Part shown: positions 5,888 through 62,918 of the stretch, piece after piece
How positions within the stretch are numbered: the stretch's first letter is position 1
Layout: the number at the start of each line of letters is the position of its first letter
Assembly: GCA_026874595.1 (NCBI GenBank)
Contig: CM049319.1
Coordinates: 4,306,601 to 4,370,600, forward strand
DNA: 64,000 bases
Reading direction: 5' to 3'
Source of the DNA: Sipunculus nudus
Lineage: Eukaryota > Annelida > Sipuncula > Golfingiida > Sipunculidae
Program-made: the position numbers and the translations under genes
The notes under the pieces: generated by a model
Database searches by the model: none
Told to the model about the DNA's origin: nothing
Seen by the model: the letters and a program-made list of their open reading frames with translations, nothing else

Positions 5888-6044
5888 GTATCCCCAGACA
5901 TAGTAGCCCCCCCCCCCCCCTTTTAAGAATAGTCCCCCATTTTTAGCAGCATATACTGACACTTGGCATATTTATTGTTTCTTCCACCTAACAATCCACA
6001 ATCTTGTTGAAGATGTTGGTCCTGTGACCTTGAACTTTTTAAAG

Positions 6045-9000
6045 ATGTGTCCTGTGACCTTGACCTTTGACCTCATGACCCCAAAATCAATTCGGGTCTT
6101 GCTTTTCCAATGGGACATATGCAAGTCAAGTTTGAAATCCATACATCAATAAAAGCAGGAATTATCATCCAGAAACTAATTTTTTTGGACAGATGGCTCC
6201 TGTGACCTTCACCTTTGACCTTGTGACCTCAAAATTGATAGTGTTCTTCCTCTCTTGGCAGGAGAACTATATGTGCAAGATGAAAGATCTGAGATGAAAT
6301 GTTTTGCTGAAAATGCATCCACATCTTTTTAAAGATGTGTCCTGTGACCTTGACCTTTGACCTCATGACCCCAAAATCAATTTTGGTCTTGCTTTTCCAA
6401 TGGGACATATACAAGTCAAGTTTGAAATCCATACATCAATAAAAGCAGGAATTATCATCCAGAAACTAATCTTTGGACAGATGGCTCCTGTGACCTTCAC
6501 CTTTGACCTTGTGACCTCAAAATTGATAGTGTTCTTTCTCTCTTGGCAGGAGAACTATATGTGCAAGATGAAAGATCTGAGATGAAATGTTTGGCTGAAA
6601 ATGCATCCACATCTTTTTAAAGATGTGTCCTGTGACCTTGACCTTTGACCTCATGACCCCAAAATCAATTTTGGTCTTGCTTTTCCAATGGGACATATAC
6701 AAGTCAAGTTTGAAATCCATACATCAATAAAAGCAGGAATTATCATCCAGAAACTAATCTTTGGACAGATGGCTCCTGTGACCTTCACCTTTGACCTTGT
6801 GACCTCAAAATTGATAGGGGTCTTCCACTCTTGGCAGGTGAACTATATGTGCAAGATGAATGATCTGAGATGAATTGTTTGGCTGAAAATGCATCCACAA
6901 TCTTTTTAAAGAGGTTTCCTGTGACCTTGACCTTTGACCTCATGACCCCAAAATCAATTTGGGTCTTGCTTTTCCAATGGGTCAAATACAAGTCAAGTTT
7001 GAAATCGATACATCAATAAAAGAAGGAATTATCATCCAGAAACTAATCTTTGGACAGATGGCTCCTGTGACCTTCACCTTTGACCTTGTGACCTCAAAAT
7101 TAATAGGGTTCTTCCTCTCTTTGCAGGTGAACTATATGTGCAAGATGAAAGATCTGAGATGAAATGTTTGGCTGAAAATGCATCCACATCTTTTTAAAGA
7201 TGTGTCCTGTGACCTTGACCTTTGACCTCATGACCCCAAAATCAATTTGGGTCTTGCTTTTCCAATGGGACATATACAAGTCAAGTTTGAAATTCATACA
7301 TCAATAAAAGCAGGAATTATCATCCAGAAACTAATTTTTTGGACAGATGGCTCCTGTGACCTTCACCTTTGACCTTGTGACCTCAAAATTGATAGTGTTC
7401 TTCCTCTCTTGGCAGGAGAACTATCTGGCCAGATGAAAGATCTGAGATGAAATGTTTGGCTGAAAATGCATCCACATCTTTTTAAAGATGTGTCCTGTGA
7501 CCTTGACCTTTGACCTCATGACCCCAAAATCTATTTGGGTCTTGCTTTTCCAATGGGACATATACAAGTCAAGTTTGAAATCCATACATCAATAAAAGCA
7601 GGAATTATCACCCAGAAACTAATTTTTTTGGACAGATGGCTCCTGTGACCTTCACCTTTGACCTTGTGACCTCAAAATTGATAGGGTTCTTCCTCTCTTG
7701 GCAGGTGAACTATATGTGCAAGATGAAAGATCTGAGATGAAATGTTTGGCTGAAAATGCATCCACATCTTTTTAAGGATGTGTCCTGTGACCTTGACCTT
7801 TGACCTCATGACCCCAAAATCAATTTTGGTCTTGCTTTTCCAATGGGACATATACAAGTCAAGTTTGAAATCCATACATCAATAAAAGCAGGAATTATCA
7901 TCCAGAAACTAATCTTTGGACAGATGGCTCCTGTGACCTTCACCTTTGACCTTGTGACCTCAAAATTGATAGGGGTCTTCCACTCTTGGCAGGTGAACTA
8001 TATGTGCAAGATGAATGATCTGAGATGAATTGTTTGGCTGAAAATGCATCCACAATCTTTTTAAAGAGGTTTCCTGTGACCTTGACCTTTGACCTCATGA
8101 CCCCAAAATCAATTTGGGTCTTGCTTTTCCAATGGGTCAAATACAAGTCAAGTTTGAAATCGATACATCAATAAAAGAAGGAATTATCATCCAGAAACTA
8201 ATCTTTGGACAGATGGCTCCTGTGACCTTCACCTTTGACCTTGTGACCTCAAAATTAATAGGGTTCTTCCTCTCTTTGCAGGTGAACTATATGTGCAAGA
8301 TGAAAGATCTGAGATGAAATGTTTGGCTGAAAATGCATCCACATCTTTTTAAAGATGTGTCCTGTGACCTTGACCTTTGACCTCATGACCCCAAAATCAA
8401 TTTGGGTCTTGCTTTTCCAATGGGACATATACAAGTCAAGTTTGAAATTCATACATCAATAAAAGCAGGAATTATCATCCAGAAACTAATTTTTTGGACA
8501 GATGGCTCCTGTGACCTTCACCTTTGACCTTGTGACCTCAAAATTGATAGTGTTCTTCCTCTCTTGGCAGGAGAACTATCTGGCCAGATGAAAGATCTGA
8601 GATGAAATGTTTGGCTGAAAATGCATCCACATCTTTTTAAAGATGTGTCCTGTGACCTTGACCTTTGACCTCATGACCCCAAAATCTATTTGGGTCTTGC
8701 TTTTCCAATGGGACATATACAAGTCAAGTTTGAAATCCATACATCAATAAAAGCAGGAATTATCACCCAGAAACTAATTTTTTTGGACAGATGGCTCCTG
8801 TGACCTTCACCTTTGACCTTGTGACCTCAAAATTGATAGGGTTCTTCCTCTCTTGGCAGGTGAACTATATGTGCAAGATGAAAGATCTGAGATGAAATGT
8901 TTGGCTGAAAATGCATCCACATCTTTTTAAGGATGTGTCCTGTGACCTTGACCTTTGACCTCATGACCCCAAAATCAATTTTGGTCTTGCTTTTCCAATG

Positions 9001-10150
9001 GGACATATACAAGTCAAGTTTGAAATCCATACAACAATAAAAGCAGGAATTATCATCCAGAAACTAATCTTTGGACAGATGGCTCCTGTGACCTTCACCT
9101 TTGACCTTGTGACCTCAAAATTGATAGGGGTCTTCAACTCTTGGCAGGTGAACTATATGTGCAAGATGAATGATCTGATATGAATTGTTTGGCTGAAAAT
9201 GCATCCACAATCTTTTAAAAGAGGTTTCCTGTGACCTTGACCTTTGACCTCATGACCCCAAAATCAATTTGGGTCTTGCTTTTCCAATGGGTCAAATACA
9301 AGTCAAGTTTGAAATCCATACATCAATAAAAGAAGGAATTATCATCCAGAAACTAATTTTTGGACAGATGGCTCCTGTGACCTTCACCTTTGACCTTGTG
9401 ACCTCAAAATTAAAAGGGTTCTTCCTCTCTTGGCAGGTGAACTATATGTGCAAGATGAAAGATCTGAGATGAATTGTTTGGCTGAAAATGCATCCACAGT
9501 CTTTTTAAAGAGGTTTCCTGTGACCTTGACCTTTGACCTCATGACCCCAAAATCAATTTGGGTCTTGCTTTTCCAATGGGTCAAATACAAGTCAAGTTTG
9601 AAATCCATACATCAATAAAAGAAGGAATTATCATCCAGAAACTAATTTTTGGACAGATGGCTCCTGTGACCTTCACCTTTGACCTTGTGACCTCAAAATT
9701 GATAGGGTTCTTCCTCTCTTGGCAGGTGAACTATATGTGCAAGATGAAAGATCTGAGATGAAATGTTTGGCTGAAAATGCATCCACAATCTTTTTAAAGA
9801 TGTGTCCTGTGACCTTGACCTTTGACCTCATGACCCCAAAATCAATTTGGGTCTTGCTTTTCCAATGGGATATATACAAGTCAAGTTTGAAATCCATACA
9901 TCAATAAAAGCAGGAATTATCATCCAGGAACTAATTTTTGGACAGATGGCTCCTGTGGCCTTGACCTTTGACCTTGTGACCCCAAAATTTATATGAATCA
10001 TCCACTATCGGCAAGTGAGCTATATATTCAAGATGGAAGACCTCGGGTGAAAGTTTGGCTTAAAATGCATCCACAGTATCTTTTAAAATGCCAGTCCAGT
10101 GACCTTGACCTTTGACCTCATGACCCTAGAACCTATAGGATTCTTACTTT
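6045..10150. repeat. 289-bp satellite with nuclear-receptor-type half-sites
   Basis: About 14 units of roughly 289 bp. Each has two blocks about 145 bp apart, read on the plus strand as TGACCTTGACCTTTGACC...TGACC and TGACCTTCACCTTTGACC...TGACC. On the minus strand a block reads AGGTCA, 2 bp, AGGTCA, 1 bp, AGGTCA, then AGGTCA with no gap. About 29 blocks are present, so over 100 half-sites. The open frames of 60-75 residues on both strands repeat with the unit and are by-products, not genes. Confidence 0.9.
6688..9183. repeat. Higher-order repeat, 1155-bp period
   Basis: Four 289-bp units form a block of 1155 bp. Variants at 6688, 6785, 6959 and 7100 recur at 7843, 7940, 8114 and 8255, nearly unchanged. 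The first variant appears again at 8998 with a few substitutions. Near identity over 1155 bp against lower identity between neighbouring units shows recent unequal exchange or slippage. Confidence 0.85.
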
Positions 10151-36840: not shown

Positions 36841-37136
36841 TGGACTATAAATGTTTCTCCACTGTGATACTATATCGAGTCGATAAAGCTCATGAATATC
36901 ATGGACATGTTGGGCTATTATAAAGGAATGTAATGTAATATGTTAGTAAATGATAAATGAATAACCTGACTGATGGATTAATAGAGTCAAATATAGTGGT
37001 TTATTTTTTATTTATTTAGGAGGGGCTGAAAATTGTGATATATTTGAGCAAATATGAATGCAATGATAGCAGTAATAAACAGTAGTAGAATGATGATAAG
37101 GCTATTTGTTGAAGGATCTAAAGTGTATGGTAGTCT

Positions 37137-38050
37137 GCAAGCTTTCAATTTGACAGATATGATGCTATGATTAACTATGCTGATGAAGTGATTTATGAAT
37201 TTGTGACTGTATGACACAATATCTCTTTAGTCTTGACAAGGTACATTATTTTGATGCCCACTATGTCTACATATTACACAATATTGACATAATTTCTGGC
37301 ATGTACATAGGTACCTATGGATGAATAGTTATACAAAATATTAAAGTATGAATATATCTGATTCATCTTGTTCTTGCTTACGGAGGCTGACTTTTGGATG
37401 GGGTTCGGAGAAGGGAAAAGTGAGGGCAGCACAAAGGTGGATGTAGAAATATTCTATTGTAATGTTTTTCATTTATATAAGAATATGAAACGCTAAGAGG
37501 AAAGGGGCCCTCCTACTTAGTTATAGTAAAGTTCTAAATATATGATTGCAAACTAATACTCTGACAAGACTGTCATGAAGAAAAACAGTAAATGCAAGCT
37601 TTCAATTTGACAGATATGATGTTATGATTAACTATGCTGATGAAGTGATTTATGAATTTGTGACTGTATGACACAATATCTCTTTAGTCTTGACAAGGTA
37701 CATTATTTTGATGCCCACTATGTCTACATATTACACAATATTGACATAATTTCTGGCATGTACATAGGTACCTATGGACGAATAGTTATACAAAATATTA
37801 AAGTATGAATATATCTGATTCATCTTGTTCTTGCTTACTGAGGCTGACTTTGGGATGGGGTTCGGAGAAGGGAAAAGTGAGGGCAGCACGAAGGTGGATG
37901 TAGAAATATTCTACTGTTATGTTTTTCATTTATATAAGAATATGAAAAGCTAAGAGGAAAGGAGCCCTCCTACTTGGTTATAGTAAAGTTCTAAATATAT
38001 GATTGCAAACTAATATTCTGACAAGACTGTCATGAAGAAAAACAGTATAA
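37137..38050. repeat. 457-bp tandem duplication
   Basis: The segment beginning GCAAGCTTTCAATTTGACAG at 37137 begins again at 37594 and runs to about 38050. Only a few substitutions separate the copies (for example CGGAGGCT against CTGAGGCT). A recent duplication in non-coding DNA; no open frame is conserved across it. Confidence 0.9.
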
Positions 38051-51324: not shown

Positions 51325-51999
51325 TCACGATACACTCTGCCTGGTCATGAGACGCCGGTTACGGTAATGGTCGATTGGTTCCTGTAAATCCCAGTGCTTC
51401 TCAAAGAACTCGACCAGCTGGGGCTCCGTTAGTAAGTTAGCTTGGAAATGCTCGAAAGTAATGGACCATTCATTCTCCATCTTGGACACCGTTGATGCCA
51501 AACTACTCTGCGATGATGACAACACATTCTTTGAGGGCACCTTGCTTTTAGACACATCCATTAACGGCACCGAACTTGTTCTTTCAACATTTTTAGGTTT
51601 CTCCTCCATTTTTTCTTTACCATCTCCTCCGGCAGGTTTTTCATCCTCGGAAATTTCTCCTTTTGAGTCATCTGCAGATTTTCTCCCAGAATCCACTGAT
51701 GTGTTCTCCGGGATTTTCTCAGAATTTTCTTTAGAATTTTTCTGGCCGATTTCGAGATTTCGCATCATGTTCTCAGCACCCTCTGATACACTCTCAACGC
51801 TGCTTGCAATAAAAATGTCAGAGTCGACAGAAGTGGAGAATGACAGTGGACTGGTACCCTGCTGCATTAATTGCTTGCTGACTTCACCTATCTGTAGGAG
51901 CAGAGTACCAGCCTTAGCTATGGCGTGGTAGAACTGTTGCTCCTCGGGGTGGTCTCGGAACATGTTGTACAGTGTCTTACAAAGCTGGATAAACTGCTC
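51325..51999 (-). CDS. TBC1D9: TBC1D9-like Rab GAP, last coding exon
   Basis: Encodes 224 residues and a TGA stop. It starts EQFIQLCKTLYNMFRDHPEE and 'AGTLLLQIGEVSKQLMQQG', closely like the 'QFIELCKTMYNMF...LLLEIGEVGK' block of TBC1D9. A Ser/Glu/Lys-rich linker follows (about residues 45-170). Then comes the conserved end 'EWSITFEHFQANLLTEPQLV', 'EFFEKHWDLQEPI'. The acceptor is TATTTTCAG at 52008-52000, and the exon is in phase with the exon at 54941. TBC1D9 proteins are GRAM-TBC-EF-hand Rab GTPase-activating proteins; this region is the C-terminal tail. The catalytic TBC domain lies outside the window. Confidence 0.92.
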   Translation of the reverse strand, partial: EQFIQLCKTLYNMFRDHPEEQQFYHAIAKAGTLLLQIGEVSKQLMQQGTSPLSFSTSVDSDIFIASSVESVSEGAENMMRNLEIGQKNSKENSEKIPENTSVDSGRKSADDSKGEISEDEKPAGGDGKEKMEEKPKNVERTSSVPLMDVSKSKVPSKNVLSSSQSSLASTVSKMENEWSITFEHFQANLLTEPQLVEFFEKHWDLQEPIDHYRNRRLMTRQSVS

Positions 52000-52532: not shown

Positions 52533-54245
52533 GTATCCGCCAAAATCAGAGAAGAACGGTCGAAGTGAGGCATGGATTGAGTGGCAAGGGGATATAGAGT
52601 TACATGTGTTAAATATTAGAATGGATCTCTGCCACATAAACATGATTGTAGGTGGCGCCACCTGTTATTTGAATGAGAAACTATCCAAGATATATACACA
52701 TGCAAATTTTCATGTGGAAAAGTCAAACCACTGCAGAGATATGAGTAATTTTATCCCACAGCTGACAAACAGATGGTACTGTGCCAAAATGGCTGCAGGT
52801 GGCGCCACCATTTTTGTTCATGTTATAAAGCTATCCAAGGGCTACATTTGTGTAAAATAATTTTCCTGATTGGTTGAATGAGTCCGGAGATATAAGCATG
52901 GATGTCTACAGCGTGAACGTGAACGTAGGTGGTGCCACCTGTCATAAAATCAAGAAAGCTATGCGGGATGTATAAGCATGCTGAATTTCAGGTAATTTGG
53001 TCAAACCACTGCAGAGATATGATTGGTTTTTACCAAAGGCAGATTAACAAATGGACACTGTGCAAACATGGTTGCAGGTGGCGCCACCTTTTGTTGTGTA
53101 TGTTATAAAGCTATCCCAGGGCTACATTTGTGTAAAATTTTTTTCCGGATCGGTCAAACGGTTCCCGAGATATATGGGTTTATGTGTGGAGCGTTAATGT
53201 GAATGTAGGTGGCGCCACCTGTCATAAAATCAAGAAAGCTATCTAGGATGTATATGCATGCCAACTTTTAGGTGAATTAGTCAAACCACTGCAGAGATAT
53301 GAGTGATTTTAACCCCAGGCAGATGAACAAATGGACACTGTGCAAACATGGTTGCAGGTGGCGCCACCTTTTGTTGTGTATGTTATAAAGCTATCCCAGG
53401 GCTACATTTGTGTAAAAATTTTTTCCGGATCGGTCAAATGGTTCCCGAGATATATGGGTTTATGTGTGGAGCGTTAACTTGAATGTAGGTGGCGCCACCT
53501 GTCATAAAATCAAGAAAGCTATCTAGGATGTATACGCATGCCGAATTTTAGGTGAATTAGTCAAACCACTGCAGAGATATGAGTGATTTTAACCCCAGGC
53601 AGATGAACAGATGGACACTGTGCAAACATGGTTGCAGGTGGCGCCACCTTTTGTTGTATATGTTATAAAGCTATCCCATGGCTACATTTGTGTAAAAATT
53701 TTTTCGGGATCGGTCAAACGGTTCCCGAGATATATGGGTTTATGTGTGGAGCGGTAACGTGAATGTACGTGGCGCCACCTGTCATAAAATCGAGAAAGCT
53801 ATCTAGGATGTATACGCATGCTGAATTTTAGGTGAATTAGTCAAACCACTGCAGAGATATGAGTGATTTTTACCCCAGGCGGATGAACAGATGGACACTG
53901 CGCAAACATGGTTCCTGGTTGCGCCACCTTTTGTTGTGTATTTTATAAAGCTATCCCAGGGCTACATTTGTGTAAAAAAATTTTCCGGATCGGTCAAACG
54001 GTTCCCGAGATATATGGGTTTATGTGTGGAAACAGACACACAAACGGACGCTGGGCAGAGACGAAAGGTCAGAGGTCAAGGTCACTTGGTTAGGCACCAG
54101 TTCACATGTGACCCGATAATTTGTGTAAGTTACGGAAAAATCTGTCCAGTAGTCTCAGAGGAATTCTCCGAAAACGAAGCGGCGGCGGCGGCGGCGGAAC
54201 CCGGTCAAAAACATAGTATCCGCAAAACTTCGTTTTGGCGGATAC
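52533..54245. mobile_element. 1.7-kb element with terminal inverted repeats and 280-bp tandem core
   Basis: The left end GTATCCGCCAAAA (52533-52545) is the exact inverse of the right end TTTTGGCGGATAC (54233-54245). The core has tandem units with an exact 280-bp step (GGTTGCAGGTGGCGCCACC at 53070, 53350 and 53630, and a decayed fourth at 53910). The palindrome GGTGGCGCCACC appears up to twice per unit. The tail has a (CGG)n run at 54178-54197 and the hairpin at 54216-54245. No protein is encoded. It sits in the intron before the last TBC1D9-like exon. Best described as HINE/pearl-like. Confidence 0.8.
54216..54245 (+). repeat. Terminal hairpin of the 52.5-kb element
   Basis: GTATCCGC-AAAAC, loop TTC, GTTTT, bulged G, GCGGATAC; AATT follows. 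Thirteen pairs around a three-base loop. Confidence 0.85.
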
Positions 54246-54940: not shown

Positions 54941-55065
54941 CTGGTTCATCTTGGGTAAGTTCTTCATGCGGGCCTGGTAGTCTGGTTTGGGCCACAGGTT
55001 TGCATACACTCGAGTCTCACGACTTGGTGATGTTGCTTTACTACCTTTGCTACCATTGTTGCTTC
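54941..55065 (-). CDS. TBC1D9: TBC1D9-like, penultimate coding exon
   Basis: This 125-bp exon reads SNNGSKGSKATSPSRETRVY and on to YQARMKNLPKMNQ. Its end joins the next exon as NLPKMNQ-EQFIQLCK, matching 'DLPKLNQ-GQFIELCK' of TBC1D9. The acceptor is CTCTTTCAG at 55074-55066 and the donor is GTTGGT at 54940-54935, a weak +5 context. It starts with the last two bases of a codon (Arg with the previous exon) and ends in phase 0. The first half is a Ser-rich linker. Confidence 0.88.
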
Positions 55066-55665: not shown

Positions 55666-55866
55666 TGGCTGGTGATTCTGCAGGACTTTCAAGAAGCATC
55701 TCAGGCACGTCACTCAAACTGTCAGCTGGGCTGGTCTGAACGCTGTCCATGTTTGGTGATTGGCCAATATCCAGACAGACAGGTCTGGTGGGCGGAGCCT
55801 TCTCCTCCACTGTGTTTTCACTTTTTGGCAAGCTGCCAAAGGCAGGTGTGCTCTCTTTACTCTCCA
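55666..55866 (-). CDS. TBC1D9: TBC1D9-like, low-complexity linker exon
   Basis: This 201-bp exon reads VESKESTPAFGSLPKSENTV and on to LSDVPEMLLESPAESPA. It is rich in Ser, Pro and Glu, and probably disordered. No homology is obvious on its own; it is accepted because acceptor (TACATAG), donor (GTGAGT at 55665-55660) and phase (two bases in, one base out) link it to both neighbours. It falls where TBC1D9 proteins have variable linker. The Ser-Pro pairs could be phosphorylated, which is inference. Confidence 0.8.
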
Positions 55867-56738: not shown

Positions 56739-56819
56739 CTGGACTTGACACTTTGCTGGAACCTGAGCTAAGATCTTCATCAAAGAACTCTGTGGCTTCC
56801 ATGGCACTCTCAGTGGAAC
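56739..56819 (-). CDS. TBC1D9: TBC1D9-like, 27-codon exon
   Basis: This 81-bp exon reads STESAMEATEFFDEDLSSGS and SKVSSP. 'SAMEATEFFDED' matches 'SAFEATQYFFED' of TBC1D9, after the EF-hand region. The acceptor is TCTTCTCCAG and the donor is GTGAGG at 56738-56733. It takes one base from the exon at 60588-60759 to make Ser and gives one to the next to make Val. A dispersed repeat end (ACAAGGGACC...) lies only about 19 bp beyond the acceptor. Confidence 0.88.
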
Positions 56820-58712: not shown

Positions 58713-59226
58713 AATAACTAAAATAAGAATTCATTTTAATAAACAGTAAAAAGTGTCATGAACAAGAATACTGGCCAGCTGGTTTGCTTCTTGGTCTGGT
58801 GTTCATAATTTAATCACTTTACTAAGAGTTGACTATTTACAGTTTGTCATGGATATGAAGGCAGTAAGTGACTTCAATCATTACATATATAGAGTTTTGG
58901 TCACATTTGAAATAAATAAAGAACATAGCCCTGAATAAACCTCACTTTAAGGCCACCTATGAAGCAACGTCAGCAAACAAGTCTTGCCTCTGAAACATAC
59001 TGCATCTGATATCACCCTGTATTGTTGATCAACACATAAAATGCTGAAGACTAGTTTTTCTGATGCTGAGTGAGATGGTAGAATTTTAGACTCCAGTTTT
59101 TCATGCTACAGATTGACATACCAGATTTTAAGAATCCAGTTTTTCTGTTCCTGAGTGATACACCAGACCTTAAGACTCATGTATTTATGCTACATAGGGA
59201 CATTCACTACTGACTCTGGAGACTCA

Positions 59227-60598
59227 AATTATCCTTATACAGACAGACTTACTAGAACTTGGAGACTCTGGGGACTCTAATTTTCCTCATACGGACTGAC
59301 TTACTAAACTTTTGAGACTCTTATTTACCTCATAAAGACAGACTTACTAGACTTTGGAGACTCTAGGGACTCAAATTTTCCACATACAGACTGACTTACA
59401 AGACTTTGGAGACTAATTTTCCTCATACAGACTGACTTACTTGACTTGGGAGATCCTAATTTTCTACATACAGACTGACTTACTAGACTTGGGAGATCCT
59501 AATTTTCTACATACAGACTGACTTACTAGACTTTGGATACTCTAGGGACTCAAATTTTCCACATACAGACTGACTTACAAGACTTTGGAGACTCTAGGGA
59601 CTCAAATTTTCCACATACAGACTGACTTACTAGACTTTGGAGACTCTAGGGACTCAAATTTTCCACATACAGACTGACTTACAAGACTTTGGAGACTAAT
59701 TTTCCACATACAGACTGACTTACTTGACTTGGGAGATCCTAATTTTCTACATACAGACTGACTTACTAGACTTTGGATACTCAAATTTTCCTCATGCAGA
59801 CTGACTTACTAGATTTTGGAGGTTTTTTTCCTCATACTGGCTGACTTGCAAGATTTTGCAGACTGTAGTTTTCCTCATACAGACTGACTTACTAGACTTT
59901 GGAGATTCTTATTTTCCTCATACAGACTGACTTTCTAGACTTTGGAGACTCTAATTTACCTCATATGGATTGACTTACTAAACTTTGGAGACTCTTTTAT
60001 ACCTCATAAAGACAGACTTACTGTACTTTGGAGACTCTGGGGACTCAAATTTTCCACATGCAGACTGACTTACTAGATTTTGGAGATTATTATTTTCCTC
60101 ATACAGACTGACTCACTTGATTTTGCAGACTCTAATTTTCCTCATACAGACTGACTTACTAGATTTTGCAGACTCTAATTTTCCTCATACAGACTGACTT
60201 ACTAGATTTTGGAGATTCTTATTTTCCTCATACAGACTGACTTACTAGATTTTGGAGATTATTATTTTCCTCATACAGACTGACTTACTAGATTTTGCAG
60301 ACTCTAATTTTCCTCATACAGACTGACTTACTAGATTTTGGAGATTCTTATTTTCCTCATACTGACTGACTTACTAGATTTTGCAGACTCTAATTTTCCT
60401 CATACAGACTGACTTACTAGATTTTGGAGATTTTTATTTTCCTCTTACTGACAGATACAAGATTTTGCAGACTCTAATTTTCCTCATACAGACTGACTTA
60501 CTAGACTTTGGCGATTCTAATTTTCCTCATACAGACTGACTTACTAGACTTTCAAGACTCTAATTTTCCTCATACAGACTGACTTACTAGACTTTGGG
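59227..60598 (-). repeat. Minisatellite of about 31 splice-donor-containing units
   Basis: About 31 units, mostly 43 bp, with some variants carrying an extra GGGACTC. On the minus strand a typical unit contains AAAGTCTAGTAAGTCAGTC then TGTATGAGGAAAATTAG. The first unit is the true exon-intron border of the exon at 60588-60759 (CTA|GTAAGT). Each later unit therefore repeats the exon end plus 5' splice site; most keep GTAAGT. Older, degenerate units seem to reach back to about 59040. Confidence 0.9.
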
Positions 60599-60759
60599 GA
60601 CTCCAGTTCTTCAACAATGTCTCCCGGGAGCAGGGCTGGAGGAAGGTGGAGACTGTACAGGAGTCCTAGCTTCTGGTGAACATCACCACGACACATGATA
60701 CCCAGCAGCCAGGCAAAGTCACGGAAATTAACTGACTGGTCCTGCTTCTCATCCAGTAA
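60588..60759 (-). CDS. TBC1D9: TBC1D9-like, EF-hand-like exon
   Basis: This 172-bp exon reads LLDEKQDQSVNFRDFAWLLG and on to YSLHLPPALLPGDIVEELES. It matches 'LLDENGDSLINFREFVSGLS' and 'KLKLLYKMH' of TBC1D9. The EF loop DEKQDQSVNFRD is degenerate: Lys at position 3, Gln in place of the Gly at 6, Asp at 12, so calcium binding is doubtful. The acceptor is TTTTATAG. The donor GTAAGT (60587-60582) is the first unit of a 43-bp repeat array. It ends one base into a codon, in phase with the exon at 56739. Confidence 0.9.
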
Positions 60760-61014: not shown

Positions 61015-61206
61015 CTTAAACGCCTGTAGAGCTACCTTATCAGCCACTGGTCCCATGGCCCAGGGAGCGATGGCTAGGAACAAGGTCTTGAAGTTCTCCA
61101 TGTCCAGCTTGTACAGTTCATAGTACGGTTTGGTGGGGTCGTACTTGTCCACCATATCTGATGGCTGTTGCTGGTTCCTCCAGTAACAAGATGTCAGGTA
61201 CTCCTC
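61015..61206 (-). CDS. TBC1D9: TBC1D9-like, conserved 64-codon exon
   Basis: Reads EEYLTSCYWRNQQQPSDMVD and on to APWAMGPVADKVALQAFK. It matches 'AEHLTSCYWGG...FPWACGTHSDVLASRLFQ' of TBC1D9, the stretch leading into the EF-hand. The acceptor is TTCACAG and the donor is GTGAGG at 61014-61009. Both borders are in phase 0, as is the neighbour at 62273. Confidence 0.92.
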
Positions 61207-62272: not shown

Positions 62273-62371
62273 CTTAAAGACAACAAACAGCTCCTGCAGC
62301 TGTTTTCCACTGAACAGCGTGTCATCTCTCACACTGCGAATCACATTCTTCATTGTACTGTCCTCAATGCC
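62273..62371 (-). CDS. TBC1D9: TBC1D9-like, 33-codon exon
   Basis: Reads GIEDSTMKNVIRSVRDDTLF and on to QELFVVFK. It matches 'LEDTTKRNVVRTI...ELEELYALFK' of TBC1D9. The acceptor is TTTATTGCAG and the donor is GTCAGT at 62272-62267. Phase 0 on both sides. This is part of the EF-hand-like region that follows the TBC domain. Confidence 0.92.
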
Positions 62372-62807: not shown

Positions 62808-62918
62808 CTGTACCACCCTGAGTCTGTGCTTGCTGCGGAGCTTGTGTATCTGAGTATTGCTGATGGTGGAGAACTTCTTGTACGAGTCCTGGATCAGATC
62901 TGTGACATCACAGGAAGC
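62808..62918 (-). CDS. TBC1D9: TBC1D9-like, first exon visible in the window
   Basis: Reads ASCDVTDLIQDSYKKFSTIS and on to SKHRLRVVQ, 37 codons. It matches 'LIRCSYEKFGSVRAEAIEQM' and 'KQRLKVIQ' of TBC1D9, just after the TBC domain. The acceptor is TTCCCTGCAG and the donor is GTCAGT at 62807-62802. Phase 0 on both sides. Upstream exons (GRAM and TBC domains) are expected to the right of the window. Confidence 0.92.

Follow-up and report, generated by a model that had tools for sequence, protein, structure and literature searches.

The 5' splice site of an exon in a TBC1D9-like gene of Sipunculus nudus was found to be the first of a tandem series of donors: a minisatellite of 31 units starts at this site and runs into the following intron, and among all unit starts only the first one yields the full protein. 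The array lies on the minus strand of the window, by which we mean the whole stretch of 64,000 nt that was analysed (contig CM049319.1 of assembly GCA_026874595.1). TRF reported a single array (59217-60603, 31.2 copies, period 43), and a donor-anchored segmentation of the minus strand from 60587 to 59211 gave 31 units, in agreement with the initial annotation, which had proposed a minisatellite of about 31 copies of an exon's own 5' splice site. The feature is placed here at 59211..60587 on the basis of TRF, segmentation, alignment and motif counts. The repetition of exon end and donor at steps of about 43 bp, as it had been described, holds for 20 of the 31 units; the remaining units measure 52 bp (six), 41 bp (three), 42 bp and 40 bp (one each), so that the step has to be given as a range from 40 to 52 bp. 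On realignment the hexamer GTAAGT is intact in 27 of the 31 units and GT in 29, and thus the retention of GTAAGT in most units, on which the annotation had made its claim depend, was confirmed. All 27 GTAAGT motifs are located inside 1.4 kb, and with one additional GTGAGT 28 units carry GTRAGT. A search with a 25-base donor stretch, allowing at most 3 mismatches, gave 27 matches, all within the array, compared to 0 expected from shuffles, and TAGTAAGTC was matched 21 times compared to an expectation of 0.33. We observed that 27 of the 31 units are distinct and that unit families come back in blocks (unit 20 is exactly identical to unit 26, and unit 22 to unit 28), as in tandem turnover. An AATAAA motif is present within the array at 60438.

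The exon which bears the array (60588..60759, minus strand, 172 nt) starts in phase 0 with the acceptor TATAG and ends in phase 1 with the donor CTA/GTAAGT, as supported by its open frame, its flanking AG/GT and its phase. That the array begins at this true donor (60582..60587) proved correct; splicing of the exon to 56819 and through the exons after it leaves a single frame open up to a stop. The exon itself closes with a partial copy of the unit, ~30 nt in length: homology reaches to 60617 in a gapped alignment, and 13 of 16 nt match the units in register at a shift of 43. Units that span an exon–intron boundary and contain exon bases, and a splice signal in many of these units, are therefore present here as in the 'mirages' of lancelets, which are minisatellites across exon–intron boundaries of several genes, including Adh3 and the globins BflGb6 and BflGb9 (PMC3087553). 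At the opposite end, beyond 59211, four decayed units extend the array to about 59037 (59037..59210, minus strand). None of the four has an intact GTAAGT, and the local alignment of this flank with the unit consensus scored 84, compared to at most 47 in 500 shuffles. Two of the four decayed copies have the motif ACTGGA in common with the exon end, at a place where the inner units differ. Judged by sequence comparison, this fits an old, slow-changing edge with a homogenised interior, and the order of origin is not proved by ACTGGA.

The host gene is represented in the window by eight exons on the minus strand between 62918 and 51325, whose splicing yields a single open frame that runs for 551 residues up to a stop. 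Three exons precede the array-bearing one (62808..62918, 62273..62371 and 61015..61206), each supported by the spliced frame and by a genomic match, a single one for the first of them. The next exon (56739..56819, acceptor CTCCAG/GTTCC, phase 1) is supported by the spliced frame; it is followed by two exons with spliced frame and genomic match (55666..55866 and 54941..55065) and by the last coding exon with the stop codon (51325..51999), which lies in the spliced frame and the first part of which was included in the genome query. RabGAP-TBC (1.4e-25) and GRAM (2e-8) domains were found in upstream exons of the same gene (L009-L012), and the array-bearing exon together with the preceding one shows a weak resemblance to EF-hand proteins (best E 0.006). 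The order GRAM, TBC and EF-hand is what we take to be the layout of TBC1D9. A Pfam search with the 551-residue tail gave no match above the cut-off. A second gene copy or haplotype was considered and rejected: the genome search with the first 375 tail residues gave eight matches, all of them the gene's own exons, each matched once.

We observed that the repeat is specific for this locus, a property which we added here to the definition of mirages. In 1,426,538,692 bases, 19 exact occurrences of the 17-mer GTAAGTCAGTCTGTATG were counted, all of them inside the array, and a 473-base genome query returned five pieces, all in the array and forming one candidate region. A dispersed satellite or transposon is thus ruled out, since the genome searches place the unit at the TBC1D9-like locus only. 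In the window, Rfam at gathering thresholds gave no structured-RNA match, and no tRNA was found. Other tandem repeats were noted as well. A 289-bp satellite (14.2 copies, 95% match, TRF) occupies positions 6035-10126, and tandem units of 146/289 bp are also present upstream of the window. Arrays with units of 265-280 bp at 52639-54030 and 15-1660 have a GGTGGCGCCACCTG stretch in common, which is likewise carried by a 278-bp array in L065, and positions 37136-38047 contain a 457-bp head-to-tail duplication with 97% match.

Minisatellites at exon boundaries appear to recur in this genome, judging from partial sequences: besides the TBC1D9-like donor we found them at three other donors (two in RAF, one in CNNM), at two acceptors (one in CNNM, one at a GRAM exon) and perhaps at one more site. 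The seven arrays L062-L068, all within the first 3 Mb of C1, correspond to the places listed by a genome pattern search for three GTAAGT at steps of 26-56 bases. They were read in part or as a whole, the array edges were judged by eye and candidate exons were searched for domains. Three of them start at exon donors, three do not, and L068 fills its stretch, so that its ends remained unread. Two of the donor arrays follow two exons of one RAF-like gene, identified by the Raf Ras-binding domain (6.3e-16) and by matches to RAF1 and B-Raf chains: a 35-bp array (L062 4421-4835), where the exon tail shares 13 of 13 nt with the next copy, and a 54-bp array (L063 5271-7423), where 28 of 34 nt are shared (these and the two CNNM arrays are given in minus-strand locus coordinates). 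The CNNM donor array has a 44-bp unit (L066 3976-5291); its 39-residue exon matches CNNM2 in PDB (5.3e-15) and nothing in Pfam, and 3 exon nt are shared with the next copy, the TRF array taking in the last 10 exon nt. The acceptor array of this CNNM-like gene (L065 1-1427) has a 55-bp unit; over the initial 24 nt of the exon, 19 match the previous copy at shift 55, and this exon matches CNBH_CNNM2_C in Pfam (5.1e-9) and nothing in PDB. The GRAM exon of the TBC1D9-like gene itself is preceded by an acceptor array of 2.9 copies of 44 bp (about C14:4385240-4385367, minus strand), in which the 5' end of the exon is part of the unit (20 of 24 nt match at shift 45); no other array of 20-100 bp with at least 2.5 copies was found in the 40 kb that lie upstream of the window. 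The remaining candidate, a 39-bp array with the donor GTAATT (L067 3720-4765), follows an ATG-initiated open frame beginning with MATTRLQIYVDKED, and the putative exon tail has 17 of 19 nt in common with the next copy. The 34-residue peptide, perhaps a securin, gave no match in Pfam or PDB. No exon was seen at the start of the L064 array, of a 40-bp array in L067 and of a 30-bp array in L065, which follows a stop codon. For the pattern with full AGGTAAGT donors, 22 distinct arrays from C1 to C4 were counted among the matches listed.

For the frame outcome we translated the junction of every unit start with the next exon. The first of the 35 unit starts is the sole one which gives the full protein and keeps the downstream frame, and all 34 later starts lead to an identical tail ending in SPKSSKSVCMRKIRVLKV and a stop, regardless of phase or retention of GT. 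The responsible TAG (60544..60546, minus strand) straddles the border of units 1 and 2, its last base being the one with which donor 2 begins, and it is the 15th codon if the junction codon is included, as had been predicted. Even when donor 2 is joined to the next exon the TAG is re-formed at the junction, because that exon starts with G. The argument that 43 is not a multiple of three, so that a neighbouring donor shifts the frame, is right but incomplete: since the stop lies inside the first extension, later starts whose exon length would bring the frame back (e.g. those of units 4, 6 and 9) meet the same stop.

The observed anatomy, locus specificity and frame outcome, taken with the further boundary arrays in the same genome, are probably best explained by a mirage-type minisatellite, that is by a junction-spanning tandem duplication which expanded into the intron, with the first donor mainly used and the array being close to neutral or slightly lowering the output. 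A segment made of about 30 nt of exon end and about 13 nt of intron start would have undergone a tandem duplication across the junction, after which further copies would have spread into the intron through the usual turnover of tandem repeats (slippage, unequal exchange and conversion). The exon-proximal copy would be kept by coding and splicing constraint, and distal copies would decay. The spliceosome would then meet 28 GTRAGT donors of near-equal computed strength. As these pair about equally with U1, strength alone gives the first donor no advantage; splicing most likely relies mainly on it, and since it defines an exon of normal size and any later choice adds a stop, it should stay in use. 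Use of a later donor would give a truncated and probably NMD-targeted mRNA. Because this outcome is common to all later donors, the array would be nearly neutral or would act as a mild brake on output, maybe dependent on array length.

Several other explanations have to be weighed against this one, and two of them concern the origin of the array. A random intronic minisatellite, whose birth was unlinked to splice junctions, might overlap an exon end by chance. The genome is minisatellite-rich, and the GTAAGT triple pattern shows no enrichment (15,519 compared to 22,419 for the reversed control, counted as overlapping matches and not as arrays); with AGGTAAGT in the same pattern the enrichment is small (762 compared to 610). 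Furthermore, 12 arrays with units of 20-100 bp and a length of at least 300 bases were found in 154.5 kb, and six of them were not seen at an exon boundary, although for L068 neither end and for a 44-bp array of L066 (9-3177) only one end was read. However, the other six, including the TBC1D9-like array and the L067 array, which is unconfirmed and has no domain support, sit on a boundary and include exon bases in their units. Of the four among these 12 arrays that were not chosen by the GTAAGT motif, two are located at a boundary, and a further small boundary array occurs in the same TBC1D9-like gene. Among 12 shorter arrays in the same stretches, this GRAM array and the decayed flank of the TBC1D9-like array were seen at a boundary. 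The sample is small and partly selected and thus gives evidence of recurrence, not a rate. Taken together, we regard a chance overlap as unlikely. Exon–intron junctions, donors as well as acceptors, may instead be preferred birthplaces of minisatellites in this genome, so that mirages would be a common structural feature of genes and not restricted to lancelets. A junction-linked process, e.g. through breaks or template switching where splice junctions are paused and prone to R-loops, might then repeatedly duplicate exon edge and splice signal; we consider this possible and hold it only tentatively. Tandem arrays are prone to assembly errors, and collapse or false expansion could in principle have produced the array. 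Against this stand the 27 distinct units, the ordered unit families, the decayed flank and the single locus in the assembly; a pure artefact would probably not show such divergence among its units or a decayed flank, and collapse or false expansion would hardly be credible.

The remaining alternatives assign a function to the repeated donors. If later donors were used at a regulated rate, an NMD-targeted fraction could tune TBC1D9, with array length setting the level. The shared truncated tail from all 34 later unit starts would suit such an array of poison donors, and in human ABCA7 a longer VNTR is associated with lower expression and more skipping of exon 19 (PMC5954066). The donor hexamer is also low in variability: it requires 3 parsimony events, compared to 1.4 per column on average in the rest of the unit (p 0.023 by permutation), and 2 of 43 six-base windows, the hexamer included, are as low. 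This conservation is weak and depends on the treatment of gaps, since with gaps counted as a state the hexamer has 5 events compared to 1.57 (p 0.09), and the window from -3 to +6 is not low, with 21 of 43 windows at or below its value, in an alignment that misplaces the 52-bp units. The low variability could mean selection, but as a feature of the sequence it is suggestive rather than robust and gives no firm evidence. In addition, the donor is lost in the decayed units, stops would arise from any intron start that contains one, and in ABCA7 the retention event is unchanged by VNTR length (PMC5954066). Regulation by poison donors is therefore improbable in our view. The initial annotation had also named an uptake of U1 snRNP by the array as one possibility. 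Docked U1 might be held on the nascent intron, where it could aid the true donor or block early polyadenylation, or it might be titrated. The 27 GTAAGT motifs within 1.4 kb and the AATAAA inside the array are in favour of such a role. The computed pairing with the U1 5' end, however, ranges from -5.4 to -5.7 kcal/mol in the 28 GTRAGT units (true donor -5.6), which makes the array donors the weakest among the six scored for this gene, the other five reaching -7.1 to -11.6 kcal/mol; of 3624 GTs elsewhere on the strand, 9.5% equal or exceed the true donor in pairing. By this measure the array does not consist of exceptionally strong U1 sites, and the suggested uptake is not supported. Two of the sibling arrays sit at acceptors, where a role of U1 is inapplicable. 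U1 is abundant, which makes titration by one gene implausible, and we see no good sign of it. When several U1 bind at alternative donors, the choice is reported to be affected and the efficiency is not, unless the sites are too close (PMC5389562). Overall, a U1 docking array is very unlikely.

The array is a member of a known but rarely described kind, namely repeats spanning exon–intron boundaries. Mirages have additionally been described in troponin C and PGBD5 (PMC3902484). The Adh3 data and RT-PCR of the globins suggest that regular splicing is undisturbed by them (PMC3087553; PMC3902484), and length instability is reported as well (PMC3087553). The units described there likewise combine exon end or start with the splice signal, at either the 5' or the 3' boundary, those of Adh3 measuring 10-72 bp. 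They differ from the present case in being found in cephalochordates, and the TBC1D9-like array has 31 units and is known here from one assembly. Searches of this genome gave no match to the GFP family, a negative that does not prove absence, 5 matches to octopine dehydrogenase and at least 141 to C1q; such a gene content would suggest a mollusc, probably a bivalve, and speaks against a lancelet. In the human ABCA7 gene an intron 18 VNTR with a 25-bp unit starts with the donor of exon 18 as its first GT, and retention of one unit, at about 2%, causes a frameshift (PMC5954066). Our array resembles it, as it also begins at a canonical donor and its unit is not a multiple of three, so that retention of a single unit (43 nt) disrupts the frame with a stop at the junction. 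Unlike in ABCA7, where the repeat varies from 12 to about 427 copies among people and is tied to exon skipping and disease, the homology here also enters the exon for about 30 nt, exon bases are part of the unit, and one stop serves all later donors.

In the human IFI6 (6-16) gene, a minisatellite that carries several splice donors, reportedly described by Turri et al. in 1995, is said to give in-frame isoforms, in contrast to the TBC1D9-like array, whose later donors truncate the protein. Both minisatellites provide one exon with several splice donors, two downstream repeat units acting as donors in IFI6 (PMC4526556); coding isoforms from downstream repeat donors are not predicted here, as 34 of 34 later starts lead to a premature stop. 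In human paralogs, variable tandem repeats at exon–intron boundaries may give rise to novel introns (PMC2812944). They resemble our array in their position, and they differ in their units of ~30 bp, their average of ~4 repeats and their location in primate segmental duplications; the available part of that source describes no donor array. Among the matches listed from the molluscan literature, as far as these texts were available, no exon-boundary minisatellite is named; a 27-bp minisatellite in intron 3 of an abalone TSSK1-like gene is not placed at a boundary in the available text (PMC6905558). What seems to be new is the recurrence of boundary arrays at several genes of the Sipunculus nudus genome, with its mollusc-like gene content.

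The TBC1D9-like exon faces about 28 donors of near-equal computed strength, and the protein would be preserved by none but the first. It is a natural test for how one of many identical 5' splice sites is selected by the spliceosome. If boundary arrays are common in this genome, they would offer many replicates of this test and a model for the origin of human donor VNTRs such as that of ABCA7. They would likewise provide material for the proposal that mirages create new introns (PMC3087553).
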